This document shows positions 5,312-26,645 of a DNA stretch of 64,000 nucleotides, in pieces. Source of the stretch: Demequina pelophila (GTDB taxonomy: Bacteria > Actinomycetota > Actinomycetes > Actinomycetales > Demequinaceae). Both the position numbers and the translations under genes were made by a program. The notes beneath the pieces are model-generated. The model saw only the letters and a list, made by a program, of their open reading frames with translations, was not told the origin of the DNA and did not search any database. Each line of letters starts with the position of its first letter. Within the stretch, counting starts at the first letter, position 1. Where the stretch lies: the NCBI RefSeq assembly GCF_000971175.1, contig NZ_BBLY01000007.1, positions 1 through 64,000 of the forward strand, read 5' to 3'.

Positions 5312-5368
5312 TCGAGCCCCCTCGCCTCGCAGACCGCCTCGGCGCGGCTTGTCGTCGCCACCGTATCG

Positions 5369-5386: not shown

Positions 5387-5520
5387 GCCCCTCCCAAGGA
5401 GCCTTGTGACCAACACCTCAGAGCGGCTGCGCGGCGGTCCCGGGGCCCCTGTCCCCCGTCGCCGCCGCGACCGGGCCGTAGCATCGGCCTCACCCCCGCC
5501 ACGCACCCTGGAGACCCCCC

Positions 5521-6717: not shown

Positions 6718-6723
6718 GCGCGG
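6707..6723 (+). terminator. Hairpin with stop codon in its loop
   Basis: CCGCGC (6707-6712) pairs with GCGCGG (6718-6723). The 5-base loop GGTAG contains the exonuclease stop codon TAG. No U-run follows. It also lies just beyond the 3' end of the convergent gene that stops at 6734. Confidence 0.45.
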
Positions 6724-6733
6724 ATAGGTGCTG

Positions 6734-9146: not shown

Positions 9147-9156
9147 TCCGAGCGCC
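9131..9156 (+). terminator. Hairpin with stop codon in its loop
   Basis: GGCGC (9131-9135) pairs with GCGCC (9152-9156), and CGGA (9138-9141) with TCCG (9147-9150). The loop ACTAG contains the TAG stop of the DUF6308-like gene. Confidence 0.5.
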
Positions 9157-9237
9157 ACGCCTCTCGAGCGGTGCTAGGAACCCCTGCAATTGCCTCGGCA
9201 CGCTGCCGCGCAAACCCGAACACAAAGGAGTAGTCGG

Positions 9238-10350
9238 TTGGAAGTACCGTTTGACTCGCTCAGCCGCGGGCAGAGCGCCCGCCTCGTGTATCAAGTTACG
9301 GGAGGCAATGTCCCGGTCGGGAATCCAACCGAGATCCGGTTCAAACTACCGGCGGCAGGCGAGGACGCGGCCGATGCGCAGGCATCGAACTCACCTGCTG
9401 CGGGGCTCCTCACGGCCGCGGGAGCGGCAGGACTCTGTGACCTGGGGTTCGGGGCCGGCACGAACCTGCTCGATGCCGAAGCATTGGCGGTGGTCCGCCA
9501 ACTCGGTGCGAACGTCGAGCACGTCTGGGCGCCGTTCGCCGTGCAGATGCAGAACCTTGGCCTTGTGGCCGAACACTTGGGCCCACTTGATGTCGCTGAA
9601 GCCGAGCAGGGACTTCGGTCAGCGTTGAGGACCAACTTGGCGGAGGCCGTCACCTCGGACGGTGTCAACCTGACCGCATTCAAGCCGGTCCTGGACAGCG
9701 TCGAGGCCTTCACCGAATCGCTCGAGATGTTCGGATTCGGCATGCCGGCCAACCTTCGCCTGTCACCCGACGTACGGGGCATGCTCTCGACCGTCTGGTA
9801 CCTAGTTCACGGCGCACAACTCGCGTGGCTCGCAGAGCACAACATTGCGGTGGGAGCCGATCCGGAGCACGTAAGGGTCCACCCGCTCGACCAGGCTGTC
9901 AGCTTCCTTGTGCGACGGCTCTCGCTCTCGACTGTCGAATATCTCCAATTGCTGCGTATTGTCGCCGATGCGCCTGAGGACTTGATGGAGCCGTTCTCCG
10001 AGATCTTCGCCGACTCCGGAGCCGCAGCGAAGGTTCGCTTCGCCGAGTGGGTGCACGAACGACTGGTGGAGCCGATCTCTTTCACGCTCGCGCGATCGAG
10101 CATGATCTCCTTCCGCCTGGCGCACGACATCGACCCTGTGTTCGAGGGCCTCTATGACGACGCTGACTTCAGCAACGCGCAGGCCTGGATCACGGACTAT
10201 CTCCGGGCGTGGGTCATGTCGGATGCGGGCCTGATCTACCGCACGCAGACAATCCTCGAGATCCAGCAAGATGCGGAGTTCTGGTCCTCGCTGGCGGTGC
10301 AGGACGGCCACACCCCGTGGACCGAAGCGAATCTGGCCTTGTGGACCTAG
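9238..10350 (+). CDS. Uncharacterised protein upstream of the DISARM-like operon
   Basis: A 370-residue protein of unknown function. A Gly/Ala-rich hydrophobic patch at about residues 45-75 precedes a mostly helical remainder with aromatic clusters near the C-terminus. No Walker, nuclease or zinc motif is seen. The start is a judgement: TTG at 9238 is preceded by AAAGGAG (9224-9230), a strong ribosome-binding site at the right distance. The in-frame ATG at 9190 has none and would add 16 residues of shadow-like sequence. It precedes the DrmD-like gene in the same direction, but a small hairpin and an operator-like palindrome lie between them. Membership in the operon is therefore uncertain. 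Confidence 0.75.
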   Translation: MEVPFDSLSRGQSARLVYQVTGGNVPVGNPTEIRFKLPAAGEDAADAQASNSPAAGLLTAAGAAGLCDLGFGAGTNLLDAEALAVVRQLGANVEHVWAPFAVQMQNLGLVAEHLGPLDVAEAEQGLRSALRTNLAEAVTSDGVNLTAFKPVLDSVEAFTESLEMFGFGMPANLRLSPDVRGMLSTVWYLVHGAQLAWLAEHNIAVGADPEHVRVHPLDQAVSFLVRRLSLSTVEYLQLLRIVADAPEDLMEPFSEIFADSGAAAKVRFAEWVHERLVEPISFTLARSSMISFRLAHDIDPVFEGLYDDADFSNAQAWITDYLRAWVMSDAGLIYRTQTILEIQQDAEFWSSLAVQDGHTPWTEANLALWT

Positions 10351-10352
10351 GC

Positions 10353-10371
10353 CTCGCCGTCCTCGGGCGAG
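10353..10371 (+). terminator. Small hairpin after the uncharacterised gene
   Basis: CTCGCC (10353-10358) and GGCGAG (10366-10371) flank a 7-base loop two bases after the stop codon. Only six base pairs and no U-run, so it is at best a weak terminator or attenuator. Confidence 0.3.
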
Positions 10372-10397
10372 TCCAGTGATGGGCTTGGCCGCCCCGC

Positions 10398-10425
10398 TGT
10401 CACACCCCCCTGACACCATGTGTCA
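10398..10425 (+). promoter_or_regulatory. Operator-like palindrome cluster upstream of DISARM-like operon
   Basis: TGACAC (10411-10416), CAT, GTGTCA (10420-10425) form a perfect 6-bp inverted repeat. A further TGTCA half-site at 10398-10402 is inverted relative to the left arm. The cluster sits 45-70 bases upstream of the probable start of the DrmD-like gene, where a repressor site would be expected. No regulator gene with an obvious match lies in the window. Confidence 0.5.
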
Positions 10426-10470
10426 CGCCAGGCACCAAGCCCGGCATCGCTGAGGGAAGCAGAAAGTACA

Positions 10471-13380
10471 GTGACATCCGTGAGCACCGCCGCGCCCGAC
10501 CAGACTCAGACCAGCACCACAGACCTGAACGTCGCCCCGGGCTCGACAGTCGTGGTCAGAGACGAGGAATGGCTCGTCACCAACGTCACCGAGACCTCCG
10601 ACGGCCCCCTGGTCCACGTCCAGGGCCTCAGCGAACTGGTCCGCGGCACCACCGCGCAGTTCTTCGCCTCCCTGGACCGCATCACGCCGCTCGATCCCCA
10701 CGAGGCCAAGGTCACCGCCGACAACAGCCCCAAGTACCGCGACTCCCGCCTGTGGGTCGAGGCGATGCTCCGCAAGACGCCCGTCCCCATCACCGACACA
10801 TCACTGAGCGTTTCCCCGCACATGCTCGCGGATCAGCTCCCCTACCAGGCCACGGCCATCCGCCAGGCCCTCGACCCCGACAACCTCCGCCCGCGCATCC
10901 TGCTCGCGGACGCGGTCGGACTGGGCAAGACCATCGAGATCGGCATGATCCTGTCCGAGCTCGTCAGGCGCGGCCGCGGCGAGCGCATCCTGATCGTCAC
11001 CCCGCGCCACGTCCTCGAGCAGATGCAGCACGAGATGTGGACCCGGTTCGCCCTCCCCTTCGTCCGCCTCGACAGCGCCGGCATCCAGCGCGTCCGCCAG
11101 AAGCTCCCCGCCACGCGCAACCCCTTCACGTACTACAAGCGCGCCATCATCTCGATCGACACCCTCAAGTCGGACCGCTACCTCGCGCACCTGCGCAACC
11201 AGAAGTGGGACGCGGTGGTCATCGACGAGTCGCACAACCTCACCAACTCCGGCACCCTCAACAACCGCCTCGCGCGCACGCTCGCGCCCACGGCCGATGC
11301 GCTGATCCTCGCCTCCGCGACGCCCCACAACGGCAAGATGGAGTCCTTCGCGAACCTCATTCGCCTGCTCGAGCCCACCGCGGTCCGCCCCGACGGCACC
11401 CCCGACGCCGAGGAGACCACGCGGCTCCTCATCCGCCGCCACCGCAACTCCGACGAGGTCGCCGGCGTGGTCGGCGCCCAGTGGGCGCCGCGCAAGGACC
11501 CCCAGCACCAGCTGATCCCCGCATCGGCCACCGAGAACGCCGTCGCACAGGAGCTCCAGGACACCTGGCTCCACCCGAGCACCGGCCGCAGCCCCTACTC
11601 CGGCCAGACCGACTCCCTCTTCGGCTGGACCCTCGCCAAGGCGTTCCTCTCCAGCCCCGTGGCACTCGATGCATCCATCACTGACAGAATCAAGAAGCTC
11701 CGCGACCAGCCCGGCGACGCCGCCGACCAGGAGCGCGAGGCCCTCGAGCGCCTCCAGGACCTCAACGACCCGAGCACCGCCAAGAGCGCCAAGTACGACG
11801 CCCTGGTGGCCTACCTCATGTCCATCGGCGTCAAGAAGTCGAGCCCGATGCGCGCGGTCGTCTTCGCCGAGCGCGTCGCCACCCTGAACTGGCTCGCCGA
11901 GCACCTCCCCGAGAGCCTGGGCCTCAAGGCCGAGGCGGTCCAGGTCATGCACGGCGGCCTGTCCGACGAGGAGCAGATGCGCCTCATCGAGTCCTTCAAG
12001 CAGGAGTCCTCCCCCATCCGCGTCCTCGTCACCGGCGACGTCGCCTCCGAGGGCGTCAACCTCCACGCCCAGTGCCACGAGCTGGTCCACTACGACGTCC
12101 CGTGGTCGCTCATCCGCATCGAGCAGCGCAACGGCCGCATCGACCGCTACGGCCAGCGCCACTCGCCGCAGATCACCACGCTGATCCTCGACCCCACCTC
12201 CGAGCAGTTCAAGGGCGACCTCCGGGTCCTCCGCCGGCTCCTCGAGCGCGAGCACGCCGCACACCAGGCGCTCGGCGACGTCGCCTCGCTCATGGGCAAG
12301 TTCAACATCGGAGACGAGGAGGAGACGGTCCGCAAGATCCTCGCGGGCAAGGTCGAGGAGGACGATGCGGTGGTCACCCCCGAGGTGGCCGTCGAGGTGG
12401 ATCTGATCAGCCAGATCCTCAACCTCGGCGCCGGCGCCCCCGCGGCACCGACCGCGCCAGCAACGCCCGCGACCGCCACCCCCTCGTACCTCTACTCCTC
12501 CACGCTGGACTACCTCCGCGACGCCCTCGACGCCGCGTTCCCCGACAAGTCCGCCGCCCTCACCGACCGCCCCGGCGAGGGCGGCGTGAAGTGGCGCGAG
12601 TACAAGAACGACGGCATCGTCGAGTTCGCCCCGCCGCGTGATCTGCGCCAGCGCCTCGACGCCCTCCCGCAGACCTACCTGAGCGACCGCGACGTCAAGA
12701 CCACCTTCAAGCTCGCCGTCACCGACGCCAAGGGCAAGAGCGAGCTCGCGGCCGCACTGGCGGATTCCAAGGGCTCCAGCTGGCCCGCCGCGCACTTCCT
12801 GGGCCCCCAGCACCCCGTGGTGGACTGGGCGACCGACCGCGCGCTCGCCAGCCTCGAGCGCAACCACGTCTACGCGATGCGCGGCGACGTCGACTCCCCC
12901 ACCGTGCTGCTCATCGGCACGCTCACCAACAAGCGCGGCCACGTGGTCGCCGCCAGCCACATCGCGGCCTCCCGCCTCACCCCCAGCGCGCCCCAGTGCA
13001 TCGTCACCCCGTACCGCAGCGCCCTGGAGATGCTCGAGGACGCCGGCGTCACCCACGCCCAGTCCAACCCGGGCGCCATCACCGGCGCCGATGCGCTCCA
13101 GCCCCTGGTCCGCATGGCCGTCCGCGACGCCAGCGCCAGCCTGGAGAACCACCTGGACGCCGCCCGCCAGGCCACCACCGAGCGCGTCGAGCGCTGGGCC
13201 GGCCGCGCCACCGCGTGGGAGCGCGAGGCGGACACGCTCGCGCAGCGCACCACCGTCAAGACATCTCGCACCACGGTCCGCGAGGTCGAGCGGATGATCG
13301 AGGAGATGCGGCCCGACCGCTACCTGGTCCGCCCGCTGCTCGTGGTGGTGCCGCAGGACTTCTCCGAGGGGGACATCTGA
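10471..13380 (+). CDS. drmD: DrmD-like SNF2-family helicase (DISARM-like)
   Basis: An SNF2/superfamily-2 ATPase of about 969 residues. An N-terminal beta domain (residues about 20-75) of the PG-x-VVVRDEEWLV type is followed by Walker A ADAVGLGKTIE (about 147-157), DESH (252-255) and SATPHNG. The C-terminal helicase half has SEGVNL and QRNGRIDRYGQ. This layout and length match DISARM DrmD proteins, proposed to remodel or translocate on phage DNA. The start is uncertain: the GTG at 10420 lies inside the operator-like palindrome and has no ribosome-binding site. GTG 10471 follows AGGGAAG by 11 bases and is preferred. One base separates its stop from the methyltransferase ATG, so the two are co-translated. 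Confidence 0.87.
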   Translation: MTSVSTAAPDQTQTSTTDLNVAPGSTVVVRDEEWLVTNVTETSDGPLVHVQGLSELVRGTTAQFFASLDRITPLDPHEAKVTADNSPKYRDSRLWVEAMLRKTPVPITDTSLSVSPHMLADQLPYQATAIRQALDPDNLRPRILLADAVGLGKTIEIGMILSELVRRGRGERILIVTPRHVLEQMQHEMWTRFALPFVRLDSAGIQRVRQKLPATRNPFTYYKRAIISIDTLKSDRYLAHLRNQKWDAVVIDESHNLTNSGTLNNRLARTLAPTADALILASATPHNGKMESFANLIRLLEPTAVRPDGTPDAEETTRLLIRRHRNSDEVAGVVGAQWAPRKDPQHQLIPASATENAVAQELQDTWLHPSTGRSPYSGQTDSLFGWTLAKAFLSSPVALDASITDRIKKLRDQPGDAADQEREALERLQDLNDPSTAKSAKYDALVAYLMSIGVKKSSPMRAVVFAERVATLNWLAEHLPESLGLKAEAVQVMHGGLSDEEQMRLIESFKQESSPIRVLVTGDVASEGVNLHAQCHELVHYDVPWSLIRIEQRNGRIDRYGQRHSPQITTLILDPTSEQFKGDLRVLRRLLEREHAAHQALGDVASLMGKFNIGDEEETVRKILAGKVEEDDAVVTPEVAVEVDLISQILNLGAGAPAAPTAPATPATATPSYLYSSTLDYLRDALDAAFPDKSAALTDRPGEGGVKWREYKNDGIVEFAPPRDLRQRLDALPQTYLSDRDVKTTFKLAVTDAKGKSELAAALADSKGSSWPAAHFLGPQHPVVDWATDRALASLERNHVYAMRGDVDSPTVLLIGTLTNKRGHVVAASHIAASRLTPSAPQCIVTPYRSALEMLEDAGVTHAQSNPGAITGADALQPLVRMAVRDASASLENHLDAARQATTERVERWAGRATAWEREADTLAQRTTVKTSRTTVREVERMIEEMRPDRYLVRPLLVVVPQDFSEGDI

Positions 13381-13381
13381 C

Positions 13382-16300
13382 ATGGCCGTCTTCGACTCGA
13401 TCGTCAACGAGGGCGACTGGATCGGCGAGCACTTCCTCACCTCCGACGGCAAGGCTTCCTTCGCTGCGCAGGTGACCGCCCGCACCAAGGAGTGGAAGGA
13501 CGCCGAGGACTCCCCTCTGTCCCGCTTCACCGCCGCGCGCGGCGCGCTCGAGAAGGCGCTCGTCGGCATCGGCCAGAGCGACCACCCCGCGCAGGACGAG
13601 GTCGACGCCCTCCACGAGGAGTACCTGCGCGTGCTCGGCTTCCGCGGCGCCGGCTACGCGATCGGGGACGATGCGCACGTCACCACCGTGGGTGTGCCAG
13701 GGCTTTCTGGTGCCGCACCGCTGGCGATCGTCTCCGCGCGCCCGGCCGATGCGGTCGAGGACCTCCGCGACAAGGAGCGCGTGGGGCTGTGGGAGCCTTT
13801 CGAGGGAACCGACGGCAAGCCGTCCTGGTCGCTCCCCGGCCGCGTCAGCAGCCGATTTTCTGGCGACGATGCGCCGCGCTTCGTCCTCGTCCTGGCCGGC
13901 AGGTGGGCGCTGGTCGCCGAGGCGGCCCGCTGGGCCGAGGGCCGCTACCTGGCCGTGGATCTGCAACTGGTCGCCGAGCGCAACGACGCCAAGAACGGCG
14001 GCGAGATCCTCACCGCGCTGACCATCCTCTCCGCCGAATCGCTCGCCCCGGACGCCGAGGGGCGCACCTGGTGGGAAACGGTGCTCGAGGAGTCCGTGAA
14101 GCACACCGTGGGCGTGAGCAAGGACCTCCGCGAGGGGGTGCGCCGCTCGATCGAGATCCTCGCGAACGAGGTGGTCGCCCGGCGCGCCGCACAGGGGCTG
14201 GAGCCACTTCCGCAGGCCGAGGCACAAGCGCTTGCCAAGCAGTCGCTGCGCTACATCTACCGAATCCTCTTCCTCCTGTACGCAGAGGCCTCCCCTGAGC
14301 TCGGCGTGCTGCCCGTCGGCGCGCCGGAGTACGACGCGGGCTACAGCCTCGACCGCCTACGCGAACTGGTGCTCCAGGAGATCACCACCGAGCAGGCGCA
14401 GCACGGCACGCACCTGCACGCCTCGCTCGACGTGCTCTTCCGGCTGGTCGACCGGGGCCACTCCCCCGCATCGTCCCGCAGCGAGGACGCCGTGACCGAC
14501 TCGCTCACGTTCCGCAGCCTCCGTGCGGACCTTTTCCTCCCCCGAGCCGTCGCGTACCTCGACGAGGTGAAGCTCGGCAACGGCGCGCTCCAGCAGGTGC
14601 TCGAGCACCTGCTGCTGAGCAAGGAGAAGTCCAAGCGCGACCGCGGCTTCATCTCGTACGCGGAGCTGGGCATCAACCAGCTGGGTGCGGTGTACGAGGG
14701 CCTAATGTCGTACACCGGCTTCTTCGCGGAGGAGGACCTGTTCGAGGTCGCGAAGAACGGCGACTCGTCCAAGGGCTCGTGGGTGGTGCCGACCACCCGT
14801 TCCGAGGGCATCGCCGCGACAGATTTCGTCACCACCGAGGACCCCGAGACCGGCGAGAAGAAGCCCGTGATCCACGAGCGGGGCACGTTCGTGTTCCGCC
14901 TCGCGGGCCGGGAGCGCCAGCAGTCGGCGTCCTTCTACACGCCCGAGGTGCTCACTCGGTTCACCGTCTCGCAGGCACTCGCGGAGCTGCTCGATCAGGA
15001 CGGCAAGACCACCACCGCCGAGGAGATCCTGCAGCTCACGGTGTGCGAGCCGGCGCTCGGCTCGGGCGCGTTCGCCATCGAGGCGACGCGCCAGCTCGCC
15101 GCGGAGTACCTCAAGCGGCGCCAGGCCGAACTCGGCGAGAGGATCGCCCCCGAGGAGTACCAGAGGGAACTCCAGCGGGTGAAGGCGTACATCGCGCTTC
15201 ACAACGTGTACGGCGTGGACCTCAACGCGACGGCCGTCGAACTCGCGGAAATCTCGCTGTGGCTCGACACCATGGTCGAGGGCCTCGAGGCGCCGTGGTT
15301 CGGGCTTCACCTGCGCCGCGGCAACTCGCTCATCGGCGCGCGCAGCGCCGTCTACACGCGCGACACCATCAACGCCAAGGCGTGGCTCACCACGCCGCCC
15401 ATCGACATCACGCTCGGTGAGCGGGAGTCGCATCAGATCTGGCACTTCCTGCTGCCCGCCGAGGGCTGGGGCGCCGTCGCCGATGCCAAGGAGGCGAAGG
15501 ATCTCGCCCCCGACGCGGTCGCATCGCTCAAGGCGTGGCGCAGGTCCATCAAGGCCAAGCCGACCCGCAAGCAGCTGGACGACCTGGTGGAGCTCTCCTA
15601 CCGCGTCGACACGCTGTGGAAGATGGCTGCGCGAAGGCTCGAGATCGCGAACGGGCAGGCACGGCGGCCGATCCCGGTGTGGGGTCGCGAGGACGATGCG
15701 CCGGCTGGGATCGTGTCGCGAGAGCAGATCGAGGAGTCGCTCGCCGACGCGAACAGCGCCTACCGCCGCGTCCGCGCGGTCATGGACGCCTGGTGCGCGC
15801 TATGGTTCTGGCCGCTCACCGCAGACGTGCCACCGCCCACCCTCGACGAGTGGATCGCCACCTGCTTCGCGCTCGTTGGGCGTGCACCCGAGGCCCGGAG
15901 CAGAAGCCGGCTCGGGGCGGACACGCTCGCGAGCGCGGGCTCGTGGGATGAACTCAACGATGCCGAGGCGACGGATCTCGGATTCGCGGGAGTGACCCGA
16001 GCACAGGACCTAACGGTGGCGCACCCCTGGCTCGACGTTGCCGCTGGCACCGCCGCGCGACAGGGTTTCTTCCACTGGCAGTTCGAGTTCAGCCCTGTGT
16101 TCACGGATGGTGGATTCAGCCTTCAGGTCGGTAACCCACCGTGGGTGAGGCCGACGCTCGATACCGACGCCTTGCTCGCTGAGGGCGACCCTTGGTGGCA
16201 ACTCGCCAACAAGCCTGCCGAAGCCGCACGGATCGCAAAGAGAGACGCCACGCTCGCAGTTCCGGGCATGCGGGACCTTGTGCTCGATGCGACGGTTGAA

Positions 16301-17914
16301 GTTCTCAGCACCGCGAATTTCATCGGAAGCAGCGCCAACTACGCCGTTCTCTCCGGCCTGCAGCCGGACCTCTACCGATGCTTCATGGCGCAGACTTGGT
16401 CGCACATTGCAGGCGCTGGCGTAGCGGCGCTCATCCACCTTGAGTCGCATTTCACCGAGGAACGTGCCGGCCACCTTCGTGCTGAGACATACCGGCGCCT
16501 GCGGCGTCATTGGCAGTTCATCAATGAGCTCGAGTTGTTCGAAATCCAGCACCAGAAGATTTACGGCGTCAACGTGTACGGCGCCTCCACTGACACGCCT
16601 TCGTTCATTCAGGCGACGTGGCTCTACCACCCCGATACGGTCGATCGCTCATTCGGCCACGACGGTTCTGGCGCGGAGCCAGGTCTGAAGGACGACGAAG
16701 GCAATTGGGACCTGCGCCCGCATGCCTCTCGACTTGTCGTAGTCGGACCCGACATGCTCGAGACGTGGCACGGCGTGCTCGAGGAAGCCGGTACCCCGGT
16801 GCTCGAGACGCGAATGCTCTATACGGTGAACACGTCGGCGGCGAGGGTGCTCGACAAGCTCGCCGGCGCCCCAAGAATCCGTGGTCTCAAGTTGCGCTTC
16901 TCTCCGGGTTGGCATGAGAAGAACGATCGGGTAAAGGGTCGCTTCGTACAGGAGTGGGGCATGGCACCAACCTGGGATGACGCAATCCTGCAGGGCCCCC
17001 ACATCTACGTCGGCAACCCTATCTACAAGGGGCCCAACGAAACGATGGCGCATCACTTGGACTGGACCTCAACGGACCTCGAGGCCCTGCCCGCCAACGC
17101 GATCCCTGTCACTTCCTACAAACCTGCGGGTGACCGGCGAGCATACGATGCCGAGTACACGCATTGGGACGACGACGGATCGACCAAGAGTGCGCGCGAC
17201 TTCTATCGCATTGCCTGGCGCCGCATGGCAGCGAACACCGGTGAACGCACGCTGTTTCCAGCGCTCGTCCCCCCGGGCCCGGCGCTAATCCAGACAGTGG
17301 GATCAGCGGCCGCGCGCGAGATTCGCGAGACCCTCGTCGCTCTCGGGACCATGCAGAGCCTGATCGCGGACTTCGCTGTTAGAGCAGCGCCGAAGAACGA
17401 CATCCTGTTCTCGACAGTCGAGCGTCTTCCCGTGGTGACCGGAGATCTCCGCTCCGAGATCGTCCGCCGAGTCCTCAAGCTGAATGCGATTACCTCCGCA
17501 TACTCGAAGGCGTGGGAGATCGAAAATGCGATATTGGGCGCGTGGAATCCACAGGCGCCCGCACGGCGAGCCCTCGAACGCCGCCAACTCCAAGTCGAGA
17601 TCGACGCCCTCGTCGCGCTCGGCCTGGGCGTCACCGCCGACGAACTCTGCACCGTCTATCGCACCCAGTTCGCTGTCCTGCGCAAATACGACCAAGAGAA
17701 CCACTACGACTCCAACGGACGCCTCGTGCCCAACGAGGTGCTGAAGCTCTACAAGGCCAAGGGCGAGAACCTGACCGTAGAGGAGCGCACCGCGACCCAC
17801 CCCGGTAGCGGCATCGACTACACCTACGAGTTCCCCTTCGTGGTCCCCGACCGGGAGAAGGATATGCGTGAGGCCTACGCGAAGTTCGAGGCCGAGTTCG
17901 GAGACGATCTGTGA
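13382..17914 (+). CDS. Giant N6-adenine DNA methyltransferase (Eco57I/DrmMI-like)
   Basis: A 1510-residue protein predicted to methylate adenine in DNA. SAM-binding motif I, CEPALGSGAF, lies at about residues 555-564, preceded by SFYTPEVLTRF, the usual Eco57I-type lead-in. Catalytic motif IV, NPPW, lies at about 917-920. Residues 1-520 are helical and contain no recognised nuclease. The size and operon place it with DISARM class-1 methylases or PglX/type IIG enzymes. From about 15,850 to 17,560 (residues about 820-1390, covering motif IV and the likely target-recognition region) codon use is clearly less GC-biased than on both sides, suggesting segmental replacement. The GTG of the next gene overlaps its stop by four bases. 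Methylase identity is firm; exact subtype is inferred. Confidence 0.92.
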   Translation: MAVFDSIVNEGDWIGEHFLTSDGKASFAAQVTARTKEWKDAEDSPLSRFTAARGALEKALVGIGQSDHPAQDEVDALHEEYLRVLGFRGAGYAIGDDAHVTTVGVPGLSGAAPLAIVSARPADAVEDLRDKERVGLWEPFEGTDGKPSWSLPGRVSSRFSGDDAPRFVLVLAGRWALVAEAARWAEGRYLAVDLQLVAERNDAKNGGEILTALTILSAESLAPDAEGRTWWETVLEESVKHTVGVSKDLREGVRRSIEILANEVVARRAAQGLEPLPQAEAQALAKQSLRYIYRILFLLYAEASPELGVLPVGAPEYDAGYSLDRLRELVLQEITTEQAQHGTHLHASLDVLFRLVDRGHSPASSRSEDAVTDSLTFRSLRADLFLPRAVAYLDEVKLGNGALQQVLEHLLLSKEKSKRDRGFISYAELGINQLGAVYEGLMSYTGFFAEEDLFEVAKNGDSSKGSWVVPTTRSEGIAATDFVTTEDPETGEKKPVIHERGTFVFRLAGRERQQSASFYTPEVLTRFTVSQALAELLDQDGKTTTAEEILQLTVCEPALGSGAFAIEATRQLAAEYLKRRQAELGERIAPEEYQRELQRVKAYIALHNVYGVDLNATAVELAEISLWLDTMVEGLEAPWFGLHLRRGNSLIGARSAVYTRDTINAKAWLTTPPIDITLGERESHQIWHFLLPAEGWGAVADAKEAKDLAPDAVASLKAWRRSIKAKPTRKQLDDLVELSYRVDTLWKMAARRLEIANGQARRPIPVWGREDDAPAGIVSREQIEESLADANSAYRRVRAVMDAWCALWFWPLTADVPPPTLDEWIATCFALVGRAPEARSRSRLGADTLASAGSWDELNDAEATDLGFAGVTRAQDLTVAHPWLDVAAGTAARQGFFHWQFEFSPVFTDGGFSLQVGNPPWVRPTLDTDALLAEGDPWWQLANKPAEAARIAKRDATLAVPGMRDLVLDATVEVLSTANFIGSSANYAVLSGLQPDLYRCFMAQTWSHIAGAGVAALIHLESHFTEERAGHLRAETYRRLRRHWQFINELELFEIQHQKIYGVNVYGASTDTPSFIQATWLYHPDTVDRSFGHDGSGAEPGLKDDEGNWDLRPHASRLVVVGPDMLETWHGVLEEAGTPVLETRMLYTVNTSAARVLDKLAGAPRIRGLKLRFSPGWHEKNDRVKGRFVQEWGMAPTWDDAILQGPHIYVGNPIYKGPNETMAHHLDWTSTDLEALPANAIPVTSYKPAGDRRAYDAEYTHWDDDGSTKSARDFYRIAWRRMAANTGERTLFPALVPPGPALIQTVGSAAAREIRETLVALGTMQSLIADFAVRAAPKNDILFSTVERLPVVTGDLRSEIVRRVLKLNAITSAYSKAWEIENAILGAWNPQAPARRALERRQLQVEIDALVALGLGVTADELCTVYRTQFAVLRKYDQENHYDSNGRLVPNEVLKLYKAKGENLTVEERTATHPGSGIDYTYEFPFVVPDREKDMREAYAKFEAEFGDDL

Positions 17915-20900
17915 GCGAGCTTCTCCCGTCCCTGCAGGCAAAGGAGATCCGCTCGGGCCTGCTCGAGTACCTCGCCACCACGTTCGCACTCACCGACGGC
18001 GACGCCCAGGCGGCGCTCAAGGACTTCCTCGAGAACGCATCGTCCGGCATCTTCAAGGGACCTTTCGTGCGCCTGCGCCTGCCGTTCCGCCCGGCCGAGC
18101 CGGGCTGGGAGGACGCGCTCGGCTGGGTACCTGACGGGTTCGTCCCGTACGGCCACCAGGCAGCGGCATTTGGGCGCCTTTCAAGCTCCCTCCACGCGCG
18201 CCCGCTGCCCACGCTCGTCACCACCGGCACCGGCTCCGGCAAGACCGAGGCGTTCCTCTTCCCGCTCCTGGACCACGCCCGCCGCATGCGCGCCGCCGGC
18301 CAGACCGGCATCAAGGCGCTGATCCTCTACCCGATGAACGCGCTCGCCAACGACCAGGCCAAGCGCCTCACCAAGCTCCTCACCAGCGACACCCGGCTCG
18401 CGGGCCTGACCGCCGCGATCTATACCGGCGAGGACTCCGGCCGCCGTACGGTGGTCTCCGAGAAGGGCCTCATCACCGACCGCGACGTGATCCGATCGTC
18501 GCCGCCGGACATCCTCCTCACCAACTACAAGATGCTCGACCAGCTGCTGCTCCGCGCCGCCGACCAGCCCCTCTGGTCCGCGAGCGCCGACAGCCTCCAG
18601 TACCTGGTCCTCGACGAGTTCCACACCTACGACGGCGCCCAGGGCACCGACGTCGCCATGCTCCTGCGCCGCCTCGGCCTCACCCTCCGCAGCCACCAAG
18701 GCGACGGCCTCTCCGAGGAGGACCTCGCGCGCCCGCTCGGTCGCATCACCCCTATCGCCACGTCCGCGACGCTCGGCGACAAGGGCGACCCCGGCGTCAT
18801 GCTCGGCTTCGCGCACACCGTGTTCGGCGAGAAGTTCGGCGACGATGCCGTGGTCACCGAGTCCCGCATGACCTACGACGAGTGGGCCGCACGCCTCGGC
18901 GCCACCTCACCGGGCGTCGGCCTCGAGCCGCTCGCCCTCGACGCCGACGCGGTCGCCGCCGCGGTCCCCCGCTGGCGCGACGCCTCGGCCGCCCAGGACG
19001 CGGAGGGCCTCGCCCGCACCGCGCTGGCCGACCTGTGCCCCGGCGCGGACATCCCCACCGACCCGCGCGGCCTCGCCCGCACCGTCGCGGCGCTGCCGCT
19101 AGTCCGGGCGCTCACCGCCGCATCGGCCGACGCCACGTCCCTGACGGACCTGGCCGCCGCCGTGCTGCCGGAGAAGGACGCGGCCGCCCCGACCGCCGAC
19201 TGGCAGTCCACCCGCGAGGAGTTCCTCCTCTACGTGCTCGCCGCGCTCAGCCACGTCCGCGCCGTCGCCGGCCCCGAGCGCCTCCCCATGCTCAACGTGG
19301 ACCTGCACCTGTGGGTCCGCGAGCTCAGCCGCATCGACCGCCGCGCGGGTGCCACGCCCAGCTACCTGTGGACCGACGACGGCGCCATCGTCCACTCCGA
19401 GGACGCCGCCCTCGACGACACGATCGAGCGCCCCGCCTACCCCGCCGTCTTCTGCCGCCACTGCGGCCGCTCCGGCTGGGGCGTCACACTCGCCCCCACG
19501 GGCGCCGCGATCGACGACGACACCGCCTCGATCCGCCGCAAGCACATGGCCAAGGAGGCCCGCTTCCGCGCGCTGCTCTACGCGCCCTCCGAGGCCGACG
19601 CCTCCGAGCTCGCCGCCGAGCCCATCACCGGCCTCGCCTACTGGCGCATCAACGACCGCGAGCTCGCGTGGGCCGCGCCCGACGAGGACGACGAGGATCT
19701 CCGCGACGGCTGGGTCCTCCCCGTCCTCACCCAGACCGGGGACGATGCGGACGACGCCTCACTCAAGGACACCTGCCCCGCGTGCGGCACCAAGGACGCG
19801 ATCCGCTTCCTCGGCTCTGCGATCGCGACCATGCTGTCCGTGTCCCTGTCCACGCTTTTCGGCAGCGCCGGGCTCGACCAGCACGAGAAGAAGGCCCTGG
19901 TCTTCACCGACTCCGTCCAGGACGCCGCCCACCGCGCCGGCTTCGTCGAGACACGCTCCCACTCCCTCACCGTCCGCTCGCTCCTCATGGACGCGGTGCC
20001 CGCGACGGGCTCGGTCAGCCTCGACGAACTCGCCGAGCGCATCATCCGCGACGCGGGGGACGATGCGGTGGCCAGGTATCGCATCCTCCCGCCCGACCTG
20101 GTGGACCACGAGGGCTTCGCGCCGTTCTGGCAGCAGAAGACCGCGGCCAAGGTCACCAAGCGCGTGCGCGACCGGGTCCAGAACCGGCTGCTGTTCGACG
20201 CGATCCTCGAGTTCGGCCTCCAGTCCCGCGTGGGTCGCACGCTCGAGCTCACCGGCTCGGTCGCGGCGCACGTGGACGCGGGCGGGATCGACAGGCTCGC
20301 GCGCATCGCCCGCAAGGCGATCGAGGGCGCGGACATCCAGGTGCTGGGCGAGGACTCGGACGCCGCGCTGGCCGCCTGGGTGCGCGGCGTGCTGGTGTAC
20401 CTGCGCCAGCAGGGCGGCGTCCACCACCGCTGGCTCGACGGCTACATCGCCGAGGACGGCAACCGCTGGAAGATCTGGGGCGGCCGCCCCAAGAACGTGG
20501 GCATGCCCGCCTTCCCCAAGGGCCGCCCGGCGCCCGAGCTGCCGCGCGTGGGCTCCAGTCGTGCCGCCACCCGCAACTCGGAGTTCGTCAACGTCGCCAA
20601 CGCGCAGTCCTGGTACGCGCGCTGGGCGCAGCGGGTGCTGGGAGTGCCGGGCCAGGCCGCCGCTTCGTTCGCCCGCGCGCTGTTCGTCGAGCTCGCGAAG
20701 GCCGATCTGGTCCTCGAGCACGCCGTCAAGGACTCCGGGGCGACCGTGTACTCGCTGGACCCGGGCATCGTCATGCTGTCGCGCATCGGCGACGACGACC
20801 TCGCCACCGGCGCCACCCTGCTCGCGTGCGACGTGTGCTCCAACGTGGTCCCCGGCGGCCGCGAGGCGGTCGCCCAGCTCGAGGGCGCCCCCTGCGTGGT

Positions 20901-23900
20901 CCTGCGCTGCCCGGGGTTCCTGGCGCGCAAGCCCTCCGAGCCCAACTTCTACCGCCGCTTCTACGGCGACGCGGCGATGCGGCGCATCGTCGCCCGCGAG
21001 CACACGTCGCTGCTCCAGGACAAGGTGCGCCTCGAGTTCGAGACCGGCTTCAAGGAGTCCGGCGAGCGCCCCGAGGCACCCAACGTGCTGGTCGCGACGC
21101 CCACGCTCGAGATGGGCATCGACATCGGCGACCTGTCGACGGTGTTCCTGTCCTCGCTCCCCCGCTCGGTCGCCTCGTACCTCCAGCGCGTGGGCCGCGC
21201 GGGCCGCCTCACCGGCAACGCGCTCAACCTCGCGTTCGTGACGGGCCGCGGCGAGCAGCTCCCGCGCCTGCAGGACCCGCTGTCCGTCATCAACGGCGAG
21301 GTCCGCCCGCCGGCGACCTACCTGGACGCCGAGGAGATCCTCCAGCGCCAGTACATCGCCCACCTGGTGGACACGCTCGCGCGCGACACCTCCCTGGCGC
21401 ACCCGACCGAGGCGTCGAAGGTCATGGCCTCGTCGGAGCCGGGGACGTTCCTGGGCGACCTCATCGCCTTCGCAGAGGACGATGCGCGGGGCCACGTCAC
21501 GCGGTTCCTCGCCAGCTTCGATTCGCTCGCCGAGTCCACGCGCGAGGCGCTGCTCGCCTGGGCCGTGCCCGTGGCGGGCGAGGGCTCGAGCGGCGTCGCG
21601 GAGCTGGTGTTTGGGGCCTCGCGCCGGTGGGCGACGACGCTCGCTGAACTCGAATACCGGCGCAAGGCCATCGAAGACGAGATCCCACGTCTGCGTGACA
21701 AAGCCAAGATGCCCGCCGCGACCGAGGACGAGAAACGCGACGCGCGGAGCGCGGAGGGCTCGCTCAAACTCGTGAAGTCGCAACTCGCGGACATGAAGTC
21801 GAAGTGGTGGGTCGGCGTGCTCGAGGAGTACGGGATCCTGCCCAACTACACGCTGCTGGACGACTCGGTAGAACTTGCGATCGCGCTCAACTGGGTGGAC
21901 GACGAGGGCAACTTCGAGTCCGAGCCCATGTCCTACGCGCGCGGGTCTCGGACGGCGCTGAGCGAGTTCGCGCCGGGCGCGACGTTCTACGCGGGCGGCC
22001 TCGAGATCGTCATCGACGCGGTCGAGCTGGGGACCGAGGGCGACAGCATTCGCGCCCTCGCGCTGTGCGGCGCATGCGGGTACACCAAGGACGTCACCGA
22101 GGGCGGCTCGGTCACGGTGTGCCCGCGCTGCGGCGACAGGCAGATCGCCGACGTCAGTCAGCGACTCGAGGTGCTCGAGTTCACGCGCGCCTCGGCCGAG
22201 GTCAAGCGCGACGAGCAGCGCATCTCCGATCGCCGCGACGACCGCGAGCGCGCCCGATTCCACGTGGTCACCGCGCCTGACATCGACCCCACGTTCGAGC
22301 GGGGCTCCTGGTACGTGCAGAACTACGACTTCGGCGCCCGCTACTTCTCCAAGCTCAGCATCACGTGGCTCAACCTGGGCCGCGCGGACCAGCAGGCCAA
22401 TAGCCTGATGATCGCCGGCGAGGAGCGGCAGGCGCCGCTGTTCCCGCTGTGCGAGGGCTGCGGCAAGAAGGACAACACCGCGGGCACCAACAACCCGTGG
22501 GACCACCGGACGTGGTGCCGCCACCGCAACGCCACGAAGGAGCGCACCCTCAAGGTCGCGCTCACGCGGACGCTCAGCACCCAGGGCGTGCTGCTGCGGC
22601 TGCCACTCGCGGTCACCGTGGGCGACTCGTTCGCCGTGCCGAGCCTGAAGGCCGCGGTGCTGCTGGGCCTGCGCGAGGAGTTCGGCGGCGCGCCCGATCA
22701 CATCGACGTCGTGGTCTCCGTCGACCCGCAGCCCAGCGACGCGGACGGGACTCCCGCCCAGGCGCTGCTGCTCCACGACGTGGTCCCCGGCGGCACCGGG
22801 TACTTGGCCGATCTCACCGACCCCGACAAGGTGTGGAGCCTGCTGCGGCGGGCCTGGGCCGTGCTCGCGAACTGCGAGTGCCGCGAAACCGACAAGCTCG
22901 CGTGCCACCGCTGCCTGCTGCCGTTCGCGCGCTCCGGCGAGGTGACGCACGTGTCGCGGGCGCTCGCCGAGCGCCACCTCGCGGACATCCTGTTCGCCGG
23001 CTCCGCCGAGGGCGCGGAGCCGCCCGCCACCCGACTCTGGAACGTGACCGAGCAGCCGCCGGTGGTTGTCGATATCGAGAGCCACCTGGAGCAGGCGTTC
23101 CGCGCGGTGCTGCAGGAGGCGCTGACCAAGGCGGGAGCCAAGGTCTCGTCGAAGCCTGGCCCGAACGGGACGCGCATCCAGGCGTCCTTCCCGGGCCAGC
23201 CGCTGCGGTGGACCATCGACCCGCAGGAGAAGATGGGCGGGGTCATGCCCGACTTCCTGCTGTGGTCGGACACCGGCGCGGACGAGCACAAGATCGCCAT
23301 CTTCACGGACGGGCACCGGTGGCATGCGACACCGTCGGTGAACCGGATCGCCGATGACGCCCGCAAGCGCGCCATGCTGCGCGACAAGGGCATCCGGGTG
23401 CTGGCCGTGACCGCGGCGGACCTCGAGGAGTGGCGCCGCGGCACCATCGAGCCACCGGCGTGGATGGATCCCGGGATTACCCAGCACCTCATGGCGCAGG
23501 CTCAGGCTCGTTTCGGCCCCTCGGATGTGGCATCGGCGGCAAGCGGGCCGCTGTCATTCCTCGTCGAATGGATGCGATCACCTCGCCCCGACGAACTGCG
23601 ATCGCTGGCGGACCAAGCGGCGTATTACTTCCTCAACCCCGCTCAGGTGCGCTTTGTCCCCGAGCCTGGGTCCTCGCTCGAAACCATCGCTGCGCGGGCT
23701 ATTCGCGACGGGGAGCATCCTGCCTCCGCCGCGCAGCCGCGCGCATGGCTGTGGCGCTCCGGCCCACTGGTGCTCACCGCAGAGGTGCTCTCAAACGGCG
23801 GGTCCAGCGTTGCGCTCGTGCTCGACGACTCGGACGACGCCGTCGCCGATTCCTCCCACAAGGTCGCCTGGCAGGAATGGCTGCGGCTGGCGAACCTGTT

Positions 23901-24276
23901 CGGGCTGCGCAACCACTCCACCGTCATCACGGCGCTCAGCGAGGTGGAGTCCACGAAGGCGTCAGGCGGGTCGGTCCTCGAGCCCGAAGCGGAGAAGGCG
24001 CTGCTCTCCCCCGAGTGGGAGGAGCTGCGCGACCTGGCCGAGACGGACGCCGAGCGCAGCCTCATCGAGGAGCTCGCCACCGCATCGGCCCCCGTGGCGT
24101 TGCCCGAGCAGGGCCGCGAGGTCGGAGACGGCACTCCCCTGGCGCTGTCCTGGCCCGACCGCAAGGTGGTGGTGGACCTCGACCTGGACCCAGCCGTCGC
24201 ATCGTCCCTCGCGAGCGAGGACTGGACCGTCGTGCCCGCTACGCTCGCGTCCATCACCGCCGCGCTCACGGCGTAG
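17911..24276 (+). CDS. Giant DEAD/DEAH helicase with DUF1998 and C-terminal nuclease-like domain (DrmA-DrmB/DruE-like)
   Basis: A 2121-residue protein starting at GTG 17911. Walker A TTGTGSGKTEAF lies at about 102-113 and the DExH box DEFHTYDGAQGTD at about 235-247. Helicase motifs V-VI (EMGIDIGDLS, QRVGRAGR) are at about 1068-1100. Cys pairs at about 516, 620, 973, 1387-1410 and 1514, and CECRETDKLACHRCLLPF at about 1656-1673, form zinc ribbons; the last is the DUF1998/MZB signature. Residues about 1780-1845 read PDFLLW, then FTDGHRWH, then RVLAV, like a Vsr/DUF559 restriction-endonuclease fold. In DISARM the helicase (DrmA) and DUF1998 protein (DrmB) are separate; Druantia DruE is a single large protein of this kind. 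It is best called DrmA/B- or DruE-like. Confidence 0.9.
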   Translation: MSELLPSLQAKEIRSGLLEYLATTFALTDGDAQAALKDFLENASSGIFKGPFVRLRLPFRPAEPGWEDALGWVPDGFVPYGHQAAAFGRLSSSLHARPLPTLVTTGTGSGKTEAFLFPLLDHARRMRAAGQTGIKALILYPMNALANDQAKRLTKLLTSDTRLAGLTAAIYTGEDSGRRTVVSEKGLITDRDVIRSSPPDILLTNYKMLDQLLLRAADQPLWSASADSLQYLVLDEFHTYDGAQGTDVAMLLRRLGLTLRSHQGDGLSEEDLARPLGRITPIATSATLGDKGDPGVMLGFAHTVFGEKFGDDAVVTESRMTYDEWAARLGATSPGVGLEPLALDADAVAAAVPRWRDASAAQDAEGLARTALADLCPGADIPTDPRGLARTVAALPLVRALTAASADATSLTDLAAAVLPEKDAAAPTADWQSTREEFLLYVLAALSHVRAVAGPERLPMLNVDLHLWVRELSRIDRRAGATPSYLWTDDGAIVHSEDAALDDTIERPAYPAVFCRHCGRSGWGVTLAPTGAAIDDDTASIRRKHMAKEARFRALLYAPSEADASELAAEPITGLAYWRINDRELAWAAPDEDDEDLRDGWVLPVLTQTGDDADDASLKDTCPACGTKDAIRFLGSAIATMLSVSLSTLFGSAGLDQHEKKALVFTDSVQDAAHRAGFVETRSHSLTVRSLLMDAVPATGSVSLDELAERIIRDAGDDAVARYRILPPDLVDHEGFAPFWQQKTAAKVTKRVRDRVQNRLLFDAILEFGLQSRVGRTLELTGSVAAHVDAGGIDRLARIARKAIEGADIQVLGEDSDAALAAWVRGVLVYLRQQGGVHHRWLDGYIAEDGNRWKIWGGRPKNVGMPAFPKGRPAPELPRVGSSRAATRNSEFVNVANAQSWYARWAQRVLGVPGQAAASFARALFVELAKADLVLEHAVKDSGATVYSLDPGIVMLSRIGDDDLATGATLLACDVCSNVVPGGREAVAQLEGAPCVVLRCPGFLARKPSEPNFYRRFYGDAAMRRIVAREHTSLLQDKVRLEFETGFKESGERPEAPNVLVATPTLEMGIDIGDLSTVFLSSLPRSVASYLQRVGRAGRLTGNALNLAFVTGRGEQLPRLQDPLSVINGEVRPPATYLDAEEILQRQYIAHLVDTLARDTSLAHPTEASKVMASSEPGTFLGDLIAFAEDDARGHVTRFLASFDSLAESTREALLAWAVPVAGEGSSGVAELVFGASRRWATTLAELEYRRKAIEDEIPRLRDKAKMPAATEDEKRDARSAEGSLKLVKSQLADMKSKWWVGVLEEYGILPNYTLLDDSVELAIALNWVDDEGNFESEPMSYARGSRTALSEFAPGATFYAGGLEIVIDAVELGTEGDSIRALALCGACGYTKDVTEGGSVTVCPRCGDRQIADVSQRLEVLEFTRASAEVKRDEQRISDRRDDRERARFHVVTAPDIDPTFERGSWYVQNYDFGARYFSKLSITWLNLGRADQQANSLMIAGEERQAPLFPLCEGCGKKDNTAGTNNPWDHRTWCRHRNATKERTLKVALTRTLSTQGVLLRLPLAVTVGDSFAVPSLKAAVLLGLREEFGGAPDHIDVVVSVDPQPSDADGTPAQALLLHDVVPGGTGYLADLTDPDKVWSLLRRAWAVLANCECRETDKLACHRCLLPFARSGEVTHVSRALAERHLADILFAGSAEGAEPPATRLWNVTEQPPVVVDIESHLEQAFRAVLQEALTKAGAKVSSKPGPNGTRIQASFPGQPLRWTIDPQEKMGGVMPDFLLWSDTGADEHKIAIFTDGHRWHATPSVNRIADDARKRAMLRDKGIRVLAVTAADLEEWRRGTIEPPAWMDPGITQHLMAQAQARFGPSDVASAASGPLSFLVEWMRSPRPDELRSLADQAAYYFLNPAQVRFVPEPGSSLETIAARAIRDGEHPASAAQPRAWLWRSGPLVLTAEVLSNGGSSVALVLDDSDDAVADSSHKVAWQEWLRLANLFGLRNHSTVITALSEVESTKASGGSVLEPEAEKALLSPEWEELRDLAETDAERSLIEELATASAPVALPEQGREVGDGTPLALSWPDRKVVVDLDLDPAVASSLASEDWTVVPATLASITAALTA

Positions 24277-24288
24277 TCAAGGAGAGTC

Positions 24289-26502
24289 ATGCCGCTGCTC
24301 GAGATGATGAACCCCAAGGAGAAGCTCGAGAAGGACCTGAAGGTCAAGGTCTTCGACTTCCTGGGCAAGCTTCAGGAGAGCGACGCAATCCCCGGGCTGC
24401 ACATCGAGCCGCTCAACAACGTGGCGGACCCCCGCGTGCGCACCGGGCGCGTCGACATCCAGTACCGGGCGGTGCTGTTCAAGCTCGACCTCAAGGTGGG
24501 CGTGAAGTACGTCTACGTGGGCACCTGGAACCACGACGACGCGATCAAGCGGGCGCAGCGGATGCGCCTGTCGGTGAACGCGGTCGGCGGGTTCACGGAG
24601 ATCGTCGAGGAGGAGCCGGAGGCTGCTTCGGTTGTTGTTGACGGCGGGGCCGGCCCTTTCGGCGGAGCCGCGGCTCCCGCGCTGTCCCAGCTCGAGCAGT
24701 GGGGCTTCACCGCCGCGGACCTGACCGGCAGGCTGGGCCTCTCGGCGTCGCTCGCCACGGCCGCGATGGCCGCGCCCGACAAGGAGGCGCTGCTCGAGAT
24801 CGCCGTGCGGGACGGCGGCTGGCAGGGCGAGGCGCTCATGTACCTGCACGACGGCCTGAGCCTCGACGACATCCGCGCCAAGTTCAGCCTCGACGAGCCG
24901 GTGGAGCAGGACCCGGAGGACTCCGAGGACGAGCGGATCGAGAAGGGCTTCGAGCACCCGACCGCGCGGGCGCAGTTCACGTTCGTGGGCGACCAGGACG
25001 AGCTGCAGAAGGCGATCGAGGCCACCGACTTCGGCGCGTGGCGCGTGTTCCTCCACCCCGACCAGCGCAAGTACGCGACCAAGCACTACAACGGCGCGTT
25101 CCGCCTGTCCGGCGGCGCCGGCACGGGCAAGACCGTGGTGCTGGTGCACCGCGCGCGGGAGCTGTGGAAGGCGAACCCGGACGCGCGCATCGTGCTCACG
25201 ACGTACACCAAGAACCTCGCGGACATGCTGGCGTCCAACGTGCGGCAACTGGATCCGGAGGTGCCGCTGGCCTCGGCTCTCGGGGAGCCGGGCGTGTACG
25301 TCACCAACGTCGACGCGCTGATCGCGCGGGTGCTCAAGGGCGCCGGGCTGGGAGTCGCGGCGGCGTCGGAGGCGGTCCTCGGGCTGCCGGTCACGCACGT
25401 CAGCAACCGCACGGCGAACGATGCGTGGCAGGCCGCGATCGACGCGGCCGGGTCCGCGCTGCCGGACGAACTCAAGACGCCGGGATTCTTCGCCGCCGAG
25501 TACTCGATGGTGGTGCTGCCGTCGCGTATTTCGAACCGGGCTGAGTACTTCTCTGTGGCGCGCCCGGGGCGCGGCGTGGCGCTCAACCGGGCGGCGCGCG
25601 CGAAGGTGTGGGCGGTGATCGAGGCGTACCGCGCATCGGCCAACATCGACGGCGCGATCGACTACGAGGAGGCGGCCGCGATCGCGGCTTCACATGTGTC
25701 GCTGGCCGGGGGCGACGCGCGCCTCGCCGATCATGTGCTGGTCGACGAGGGCCAGGACCTGACGCCGGCGCGCTGGCAGTTCCTGCGGGCGCTGGCGCCG
25801 GAGGGTCCGGACGACCTCTTCATCGCGGAGGACTCGCACCAGCGCATCTACGGCCAGAAGGTGGTGCTGGGGCGGTACGGGATCCGGATCGTGGGCCGCT
25901 CACAGCGGCTGACGCTGAACTACCGGACCACGGAGCAGAACCTGCAGTGGGCGGTCAGTGTGCTGTCGGGGGCGGAGTACTCGGACGTCGAGGGGGCCGA
26001 GGAGTCGACGGCGGGCTACCACTCCGCGCGGCTGGGGCCGGTGCCGGAGTTGGTGTCCTGCTCCTCCGTGACCGAGGAGTACGACGCGGTGGCGTCTCGG
26101 CTGCTTGCGTGGCTCGACGAGGACGGGGTCGCGCCCGAATCGCTCGCGGTGCTGGTGCGGGACAAGGCGACGCAGGCCCGGCTGGCGACGGCGCTGGGCG
26201 ACCGCGGCGTGACCGTGCAGCAGGTGGACCGCGGGTCGATCCGCGCCGGCCACCCGTCCGTGCTCACGATGCACCGCGCGAAGGGCACGGAGTTCGCGCG
26301 CGTGGTGCTGGCGGGGGTCTCTGCGGGGGCTGTGCCGGCGGCCATGCGGTCCGAGCAGTACTCGTCGGATTCGGAGGCGGACGCGCTGCTGCGCGAGCGT
26401 TCGCTGCTCTACGTCGCGGCGACGAGGGCGAGGGATGTGCTCGTGGTGACGTGGGCGGGGGCAAAGAGTTCGCTGCTCGACGCCGCCGAGCGTGAGGCGT
26501 GA
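24289..26502 (+). CDS. UvrD/Rep-family helicase with RelE-like N-terminal domain
   Basis: A 737-residue superfamily-I helicase. Walker A SGGAGTGKTVV lies at about 275-285, motif II VDEGQDLTPARW at about 484-495, and motifs V/VI (MHRAKGTEF, LYVAATRARD) near 661-720. Residues about 20-105 look like a RelE/ParE-type fold: a stretch reading DPRVRTGRVDIQYRAVLF, then a core strand and WNHDDAIKRAQRM, as in other actinobacterial RelE-UvrD fusions. A helical linker (about 120-215) follows. AAGGAG precedes the ATG, 12 bases after the upstream stop, so it is the last gene of the DISARM-like operon. Published DISARM loci usually end in a PLD gene (DrmC) instead. Helicase identity is firm; the RelE-like assignment is by eye. 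Confidence 0.88.
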   Translation: MPLLEMMNPKEKLEKDLKVKVFDFLGKLQESDAIPGLHIEPLNNVADPRVRTGRVDIQYRAVLFKLDLKVGVKYVYVGTWNHDDAIKRAQRMRLSVNAVGGFTEIVEEEPEAASVVVDGGAGPFGGAAAPALSQLEQWGFTAADLTGRLGLSASLATAAMAAPDKEALLEIAVRDGGWQGEALMYLHDGLSLDDIRAKFSLDEPVEQDPEDSEDERIEKGFEHPTARAQFTFVGDQDELQKAIEATDFGAWRVFLHPDQRKYATKHYNGAFRLSGGAGTGKTVVLVHRARELWKANPDARIVLTTYTKNLADMLASNVRQLDPEVPLASALGEPGVYVTNVDALIARVLKGAGLGVAAASEAVLGLPVTHVSNRTANDAWQAAIDAAGSALPDELKTPGFFAAEYSMVVLPSRISNRAEYFSVARPGRGVALNRAARAKVWAVIEAYRASANIDGAIDYEEAAAIAASHVSLAGGDARLADHVLVDEGQDLTPARWQFLRALAPEGPDDLFIAEDSHQRIYGQKVVLGRYGIRIVGRSQRLTLNYRTTEQNLQWAVSVLSGAEYSDVEGAEESTAGYHSARLGPVPELVSCSSVTEEYDAVASRLLAWLDEDGVAPESLAVLVRDKATQARLATALGDRGVTVQQVDRGSIRAGHPSVLTMHRAKGTEFARVVLAGVSAGAVPAAMRSEQYSSDSEADALLRERSLLYVAATRARDVLVVTWAGAKSSLLDAAEREA

Positions 26503-26606: not shown

Positions 26607-26645
26607 CTGTGGGAGCGGTGCCCACGTATCAGTGGCTCTCCACAG
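26607..26645 (-). terminator. Bulged hairpin around the GmrSD-like stop codon
   Basis: CTGTGG (26607-26612) pairs with CCACAG (26640-26645), GAG (26613-26615) with CTC (26636-26638), and CCAC (26622-26625) with GTGG (26632-26635). The loop GTATCA contains the minus-strand stop codon. It lies between the convergent UvrD and DUF262 genes. Confidence 0.45.

Follow-up and report, generated by a model that had tools for sequence, protein, structure and literature searches.

Identity of the operon

Which defence system is encoded by the four co-directional genes of Demequina pelophila at positions 10420–26502 (+ strand) of the window, by which we mean the whole 64,000-nucleotide stretch of DNA analysed? 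An earlier note on this DNA placed the operon between DISARM and Druantia and suggested that it may be an undescribed subtype. The placement was sound; the claim to novelty falls, as the exact gene set and order have already been published and phage-tested as ARMADA Type II (PMC12458937). By sequence comparison the locus is very probably a complete ARMADA Type II anti-phage operon, armA-armB-armC-armD, an assignment that follows from the match of the published gene set, the order, and the RelE-UvrD and Vsr domains. ARMADA Type II has been a known kind since 2025, and the Demequina operon is not an undescribed mixture; rather, a recently described class of defence is found intact in this genus. 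Its genes are:

10420–13380, + strand: armA, RapA/BrxHII/DrmD-like SNF2 helicase (986 aa, counted from the first GTG)
13382–17914, + strand: armB, PglX-like N6-adenine DNA methyltransferase (1510 aa)
17911–24276, + strand: armC, YprA-family SF2 helicase with putative Zn-binding modules and a predicted C-terminal Vsr-type nuclease (2121 aa)
24289–26502, + strand: armD, GajB/UvrD-like SF1 helicase bearing a fused RelE-like domain (737 aa)

Between armA and armB lies a gap of 1 base, armB and armC overlap by 4 bases, and 12 bases separate armC from armD; the ORF coordinates agree exactly with the single operon that had been described on these spacings. The start given for the first gene, 10471, is indeed an in-frame GTG, but the ORF opens earlier, with its first in-frame GTG at 10420; from the sequence, GTG 10471 or 10480 is also possible. 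Pfam assigns SNF2-rel_dom and Helicase_C to ArmA; Eco57I and MmeI_Mtase domains, of the N6 methyltransferase type, to ArmB; DEAD, Helicase_C and MZB (DUF1998) to ArmC; and UvrD-helicase/UvrD_N and UvrD_C to ArmD.

A genome search for the four-gene order, as had been proposed, found it again in dozens of Actinomycetota. Such recurrence, together with the long alignments to the E. coli proteins given below, lies far beyond chance. Within Demequina, only 3 genomes out of 44 encode a full-length ArmC, a pattern consistent with gain and loss by transfer; the two nearest relatives among named genomes are D. gelatinilytica and D. sediminicola.

Comparison with the E. coli system

ARMADA was defined by Bell et al. 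(bioRxiv, Sept 2025; PMC12458937), who described the Type II order as armA (BrxHII/RapA-like), armB (PglX-like), armC (YprA with Vsr) and armD (RelE-UvrD, GajB-like). Their E. coli systems, from NCTC 12900 and ATCC 8739, provide broad, non-abortive phage protection in which cells survive; all four arm genes are required, and mutants in ATPase or methyltransferase motifs lose function, with partial loss for two mutants (PMC12458937). We used the phage-tested ATCC 8739 locus, reached by way of an E. coli plasmid bearing these four genes, as the reference. The window proteins align with their ATCC 8739 counterparts as follows: ArmA, 34.6% identity over 849 aa (E 1e-145); ArmB, 33.4% over 1454 aa (E 0); ArmC, 30.4% over 1935 aa (E 0); and ArmD, 32.8% over 737 aa (E 1e-96). 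Though these alignments span most of each length, identity to the tested proteins is only 30–35%. Each of the eight residues that Bell et al. mutated is conserved in the window proteins; they are the Walker A/B residues of ArmA (K170 and D269), ArmC and ArmD (K281 and D486) and the GxG and NPPW residues of ArmB (G560 of the SAM motif, and N918).

In a tree of 25 YprA-family proteins, 17 ArmC sequences, including those of the window and of E. coli ATCC 8739, lie on one side of a branch with an SH-aLRT of 100, with DruE and DrmA outside; the window ArmC adjoins that of D. gelatinilytica. The tree was built without ARMADA Type I sequences, and long branches make its deeper joins unsure.

Alternative assignments

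The reading first put forward for this locus, a new subtype of DISARM with a DrmA-DrmB fusion and another gene in place of DrmC, is very unlikely. Much of what it drew on holds: the relationship of the SNF2 protein and the methylase to DrmD and DrmMI is borne out by profile matches of ArmA to DrmD (1.2e-91; NCBIfam DISARM_DrmD, 342 bits) and weaker matches of ArmB to DrmMI, and ArmC does combine the DrmA-like and the DrmB-like function in a single DruE-like chain of 2121 residues with a nuclease-like end. The missing drmC is likewise confirmed, with no PLD in any of the four proteins by Pfam and a RelE-UvrD gene instead; the sole PLD-like match seen across the window falls on ZacB, at a distance of 21 kb. 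However, the DISARM and Druantia profile runs that had been suggested as a check go against the proposal: NCBIfam DISARM scores are all below cut-off (610 bits for DrmD, and 20 of 999 bits for DrmA), ArmC has DruE rather than DrmA as its best profiles, and it groups with E. coli ArmC in the tree, while the published ARMADA Type II family fits exactly. Nor is the fusion of helicase and DUF1998 a novelty, for in the YprA family the two typically share a single chain, DISARM being the branch that splits them (PMC12458937). The DISARM reading is already refuted unless DISARM is redefined to take in ARMADA.

A Druantia variant, which would account for the best PADLOC profiles of ArmC (DruE3, E 3.9e-78; DruE1, E 1.3e-69), is more improbable still. 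These profile matches are partial pieces, and the E. coli DruE, encoded in the same island as E. coli ArmC, gives only partial alignments to the window ArmC (best E 3e-30), where E. coli ArmC reaches E 0 over 1935 aa. The tree sets ArmC apart from DruE, and no PADLOC match to a DruH/DruF partner was seen among the ten neighbour ORFs tested. We give equally little credence to ArmB being an orphan type IIG restriction enzyme beside unrelated helicases. The PADLOC profile PDLC03611 'REase_MTase_IIG' does span the full length of ArmB (1523 bits), but at the expected ExK position of the putative N-terminal nuclease motif the window has IVSAR, E. coli ArmB does not keep the motif, and the PD-(D/E)xK motif is kept, at motif level only, in just a few ArmB relatives. 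Furthermore, dozens of genomes have armB linked with armA and armC, and it is one of the four genes needed in E. coli (PMC12458937). In a PADLOC v2 scan, the ARMADA II methyltransferase would carry the label of an orphan type IIG enzyme.

The nuclease-like end of ArmC and the RelE-like start of ArmD

Three domains were delimited in ArmC and ArmD:

22648–22917, + strand: DUF1998/MZB zinc cluster of ArmC (residues 1580–1669; Pfam PF09369, E 2.8e-10)
23074–23589, + strand: predicted nuclease domain of ArmC, Vsr-like (EDxHD / PD-(D/E)xK), about residues 1722–1893
24289–24618, + strand: predicted N-terminal RelE/YoeB-like fold of ArmD (residues 1–110)

The four Cys of the zinc cluster are invariant across 37 relatives, and ArmC contains seven CxxC motifs, most of them placed as in E. 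coli ArmC. The family has been described with a BrxA-like insertion, beta-barrel Zn modules and a MarR-like domain (PMC12458937).

Within the C-terminal domain, the candidate active-site residues E1727, D1781, D1800 and H1805 are invariant in the same number of relatives (37) and, by alignment, are also kept in E. coli ArmC. A PDB sequence search with the C-terminus returned chance matches only, and a first Foldseek pass with the whole model of this end gave no significant match. A second-look structural alignment of the model matched the catalytic domain of I-Bth0305I (3r3p; Z 8.7, 97/97 aa) and 3hrl (Z 8.1), which were the cleanest single-domain matches and both of which we take to be Vsr-like. 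On the basis of the motif and this second-look alignment, the end of ArmC is a predicted Vsr-type/EDxHD nuclease, in agreement with PMC12458937.

The AlphaFold model of the ArmD N-terminus (38-sequence input) has a pLDDT of 88, and its best Foldseek matches are all YoeB/ParE/YafQ toxins (top E 4.5e-3, probability 1.00). All 38 sequences of the actinobacterial set have R51, R54, R60, H82 and D83, and the YR and HD motifs are present in E. coli ArmD too. This modelled, RelE-like assignment is in line with PMC12458937. The models and invariant residues thereby bear out both the nuclease-like end of ArmC and the RelE-like start of ArmD noticed earlier. We also considered whether some relatives possess ArmDs without RelE, with matches starting only at residue 100–140; this was rejected, as the RelE motif was present in 11 of 11 loci read, so that all of the diverged ArmDs inspected keep the domain. 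Residues of the RelE domain were not among the mutants of PMC12458937, and the invariant R54, R60, H82 and D83 are targets within this toxin-like domain.

A variable, predicted recognition region in ArmB

Turning to how the operon might distinguish self from phage—a question left open by PMC12458937—comparison with D. gelatinilytica delimits one region of ArmB:

15869–17581, + strand: ArmB, predicted region for DNA recognition (specificity), about residues 830–1400

Residues 1–825 of ArmB are 92–99% identical to those of D. gelatinilytica, about residues 826–1425 are 49–73% identical, and the last 85 residues return to 95%. The armB DNA follows the same course, from about 90% down to 41% at the lowest point and then up again. 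ArmA (87%) and ArmD (77%) show no drop of this size, and ArmC (83%) dips at residues 301–450 and near its C-terminal end. In PglX of BREX, the N-terminal half methylates and the C-terminal half reads the motif (PMC11341690). Together, this division of PglX and the block pattern of ArmB identity suggest that ArmB would be a self-marker whose site is set by residues of about 830–1400, and by these alignments the predicted C-terminal recognition region is exchanged between close relatives.

The first of the two dips in ArmC (residues 301–450, window 18811–19260) has 53–61% identity to the closest relative, against 83% overall, and sits soon after RecA1, where PMC12458937 puts the BrxA-like insert. 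Possibly, this stretch co-varies with the ArmB recognition region.

The window genome has a single armB only; among relatives, genome G255 (locus L135) carries armB at 4064–8887 (+ strand) followed by an inverted, N-terminally truncated copy at 9072–10823 (− strand) and, beyond it, a tyrosine recombinase at 10785–11657 (+ strand; Pfam E 1.9e-19). Blocks of 158, 255, 267 and 335 bp are perfectly identical between the two copies and are parted by three divergent segments, which correspond to residues 1043–1089, 1175–1191 and 1281–1392 of the window ArmB. These segments fall within the same stretch and thus support the placement of the specificity region at about residues 830–1400. Invertible specificity genes are usually laid out in this way, and ArmB specificity in G255 is probably phase-variable. 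In G320 (L136) there is a shorter inverted armB copy with 81% identity and an ATPase gene between; no recombinase was seen by this copy.

Cargo between armB and armC

An order-level sample, not picked for the question of cargo, provided 33 loci with armB and armC on one contig. Twelve of these (G064, G090, G176, G199, G212, G225, G232, G255, G320, G341, G393 and G411) carry 1–13 kb between the two genes, frequently with GmrSD/HEC-05 genes among the cargo, and none of the measurable armA-armB and armC-armD junctions has an insertion of at least 1 kb. The chance of all 12 insertions falling at one of three junctions is about 6e-6, or about 1e-3 if only the seven genera are counted. Pfam assigns the cargo of sample and further loci as follows:

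L122, L124, L127, L130, L131 and L055: GmrSD
L081: FRG and PIN
L083: OLD-type ATPase and AlbA_2
L119: OLD-type ATPase with UvrD, as in Gabija
L120: ThsB-type TIR
L133/L025: Sa_NUDIX protein

These gene positions point to the armB-armC junction as a fixed cargo slot in the ARMADA II operons of Actinomycetota. A strict gene order has been stated for ARMADA, and armB-armC cargo is absent from the main text of PMC12458937; the swap of the recognition region and the inverted cassette, like the cargo, go beyond that text. A parallel is found in BREX, whose GmrSD gene brxU sits as an insertion next to pglX (Picton et al. 2021, PMC8565348).

On balance, we favour a reading in which ARMADA II of Actinomycetota is modular and re-targetable: ArmB specificity would be exchanged between close relatives, the window's own armB included, and in at least one genome switched by inversion through a silent, inverted 3′ cassette of armB and a tyrosine recombinase dedicated to it; the armB-armC slot would load defence genes. 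As part of the same reading, and with the same modest preference, genes in the slot, most often of GmrSD type, would catch phages with modified DNA. The specificity region, the cargo slot and the phase-variable relative each bear on self/phage discrimination by ARMADA.

Two loci contain a second, diverged armC 5′ end upstream of the cargo: L020 (830–1781 and 3643–4596; 954 bp at 84%) and L081 (8342–8503 and 9878–10038; 162 bp at 81%). As only these two have it, a duplicated armC 5′ end was rejected as a general signature of insertion. Other rearrangements were also observed. The ARMADA II genes are permuted to C-D-A-B in G347 (L134), and armD is doubled in tandem after armC in G320 (L116:520–5773). 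On a Tsukamurella tyrosinosolvens plasmid (NZ_LR134452; L091:5543–30005), a UvrD-DrmA-DrmB-ArmA-ArmB-ArmC-ArmD-UvrD array places DISARM drmA/drmB immediately before the ARMADA II operon, with ArmC split into two ORFs. In D. gelatinilytica (G020, L077:552–9087), the Druantia type II genes DruF2 and DruE2 lie a few kb from ARMADA II.

Neighbourhood of the operon

The window operon sits among other defence genes. Two minus-strand genes lie right behind armD, outside the core:

26629–28386, − strand: HEC-05 / GmrSD_N (DUF262) protein (PADLOC HEC-05, E 2.7e-204; Pfam GmrSD_N)
28820–30571, − strand: 583-aa protein with no Pfam or PADLOC match

Both belong to families seen in the armB-armC slot elsewhere: relatives of the HEC-05 protein with 45% identity lie between armB and armC in two Pseudonocardia, and a homologue of the 583-aa protein (34% over 462 aa) does so in the Propionibacteriaceae genome L020.

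Upstream, two genes were considered as parts of the system and rejected. For the DUF6308 gene (8325–9146), only two distant DUF6308 matches were seen beside ARMADA loci elsewhere, and the gene at 9190–10350 (386 aa, no match) was not found beside other ARMADA loci, upstream coverage of the compared loci being incomplete in both cases. Matches to the integrase family PF00589 in this genome are all on other contigs, and the window contains no tRNA; thus no mobile element was recognised.

Further along, a second DrmD-like SNF2 helicase (1140 aa) overlaps a UvrD/Schlafen-type SF1 helicase (661 aa) at 34164–39547 (+ strand); these two genes form a helicase unit of their own. Another restriction gene of GmrSD type (DUF262), the second in the window, is located at 39618–41426 (− strand), and the Zac defence system is represented by ZacC and ZacB at 44604–50404 (− strand; PADLOC 1120 and 555 bits).

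Proposed mechanism

We propose that the N-terminal methyltransferase of ArmB would mark one adenine motif on host DNA, with its C-terminal region (about residues 830–1400) reading, and so setting, the methylation site. On unmarked phage DNA, the SNF2/RapA-like motor ArmA and the YprA helicase of ArmC would engage and translocate, and the predicted Vsr-type nuclease at the C-terminus of ArmC may then cut. ArmD, a UvrD-type helicase with a RelE fold, could help to process the DNA, its RelE part possibly acting in RNA cleavage or as a docking module.

Comparison with known systems

The operon resembles class 1 DISARM in its DrmD-like SNF2 helicase and DrmMI-like (PglX-like) methyltransferase. It differs in carrying helicase and DUF1998 in one 2121-aa chain, with no separate drmA/drmB, in having a RelE-UvrD gene and no PLD gene, and in DISARM profile scores under the cut-off. 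With Druantia types II and III it shares a DruE-like YprA helicase, ArmC; unlike DruE, ArmC falls in a separate clade, no DruH/DruF was found among the neighbour ORFs tested, and the operon includes methyltransferase and SNF2 genes. In addition, ArmC has a predicted Vsr end, in contrast to the PLD ends of Druantia type III.

BREX with an embedded BrxU (PMC8565348) is similar in its PglX-like methyltransferase with a C-terminal recognition region and in the GmrSD-type gene inserted alongside that of the methyltransferase, an arrangement that many ARMADA II relatives share. However, the ARMADA operon is without PglZ, BrxC and BrxL, and the GmrSD-type gene of the window lies behind armD on the opposite strand. 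Compared with ARMADA Type II of E. coli, the window operon belongs to an actinobacterial host and is 30–35% identical; no Zorya or Druantia was recognised adjacent to it in the window, where HEC-05, GmrSD and ZacBC are nearby instead. With that system it shares the same four genes, in the same order, with the same domain fusions and the same essential residues.
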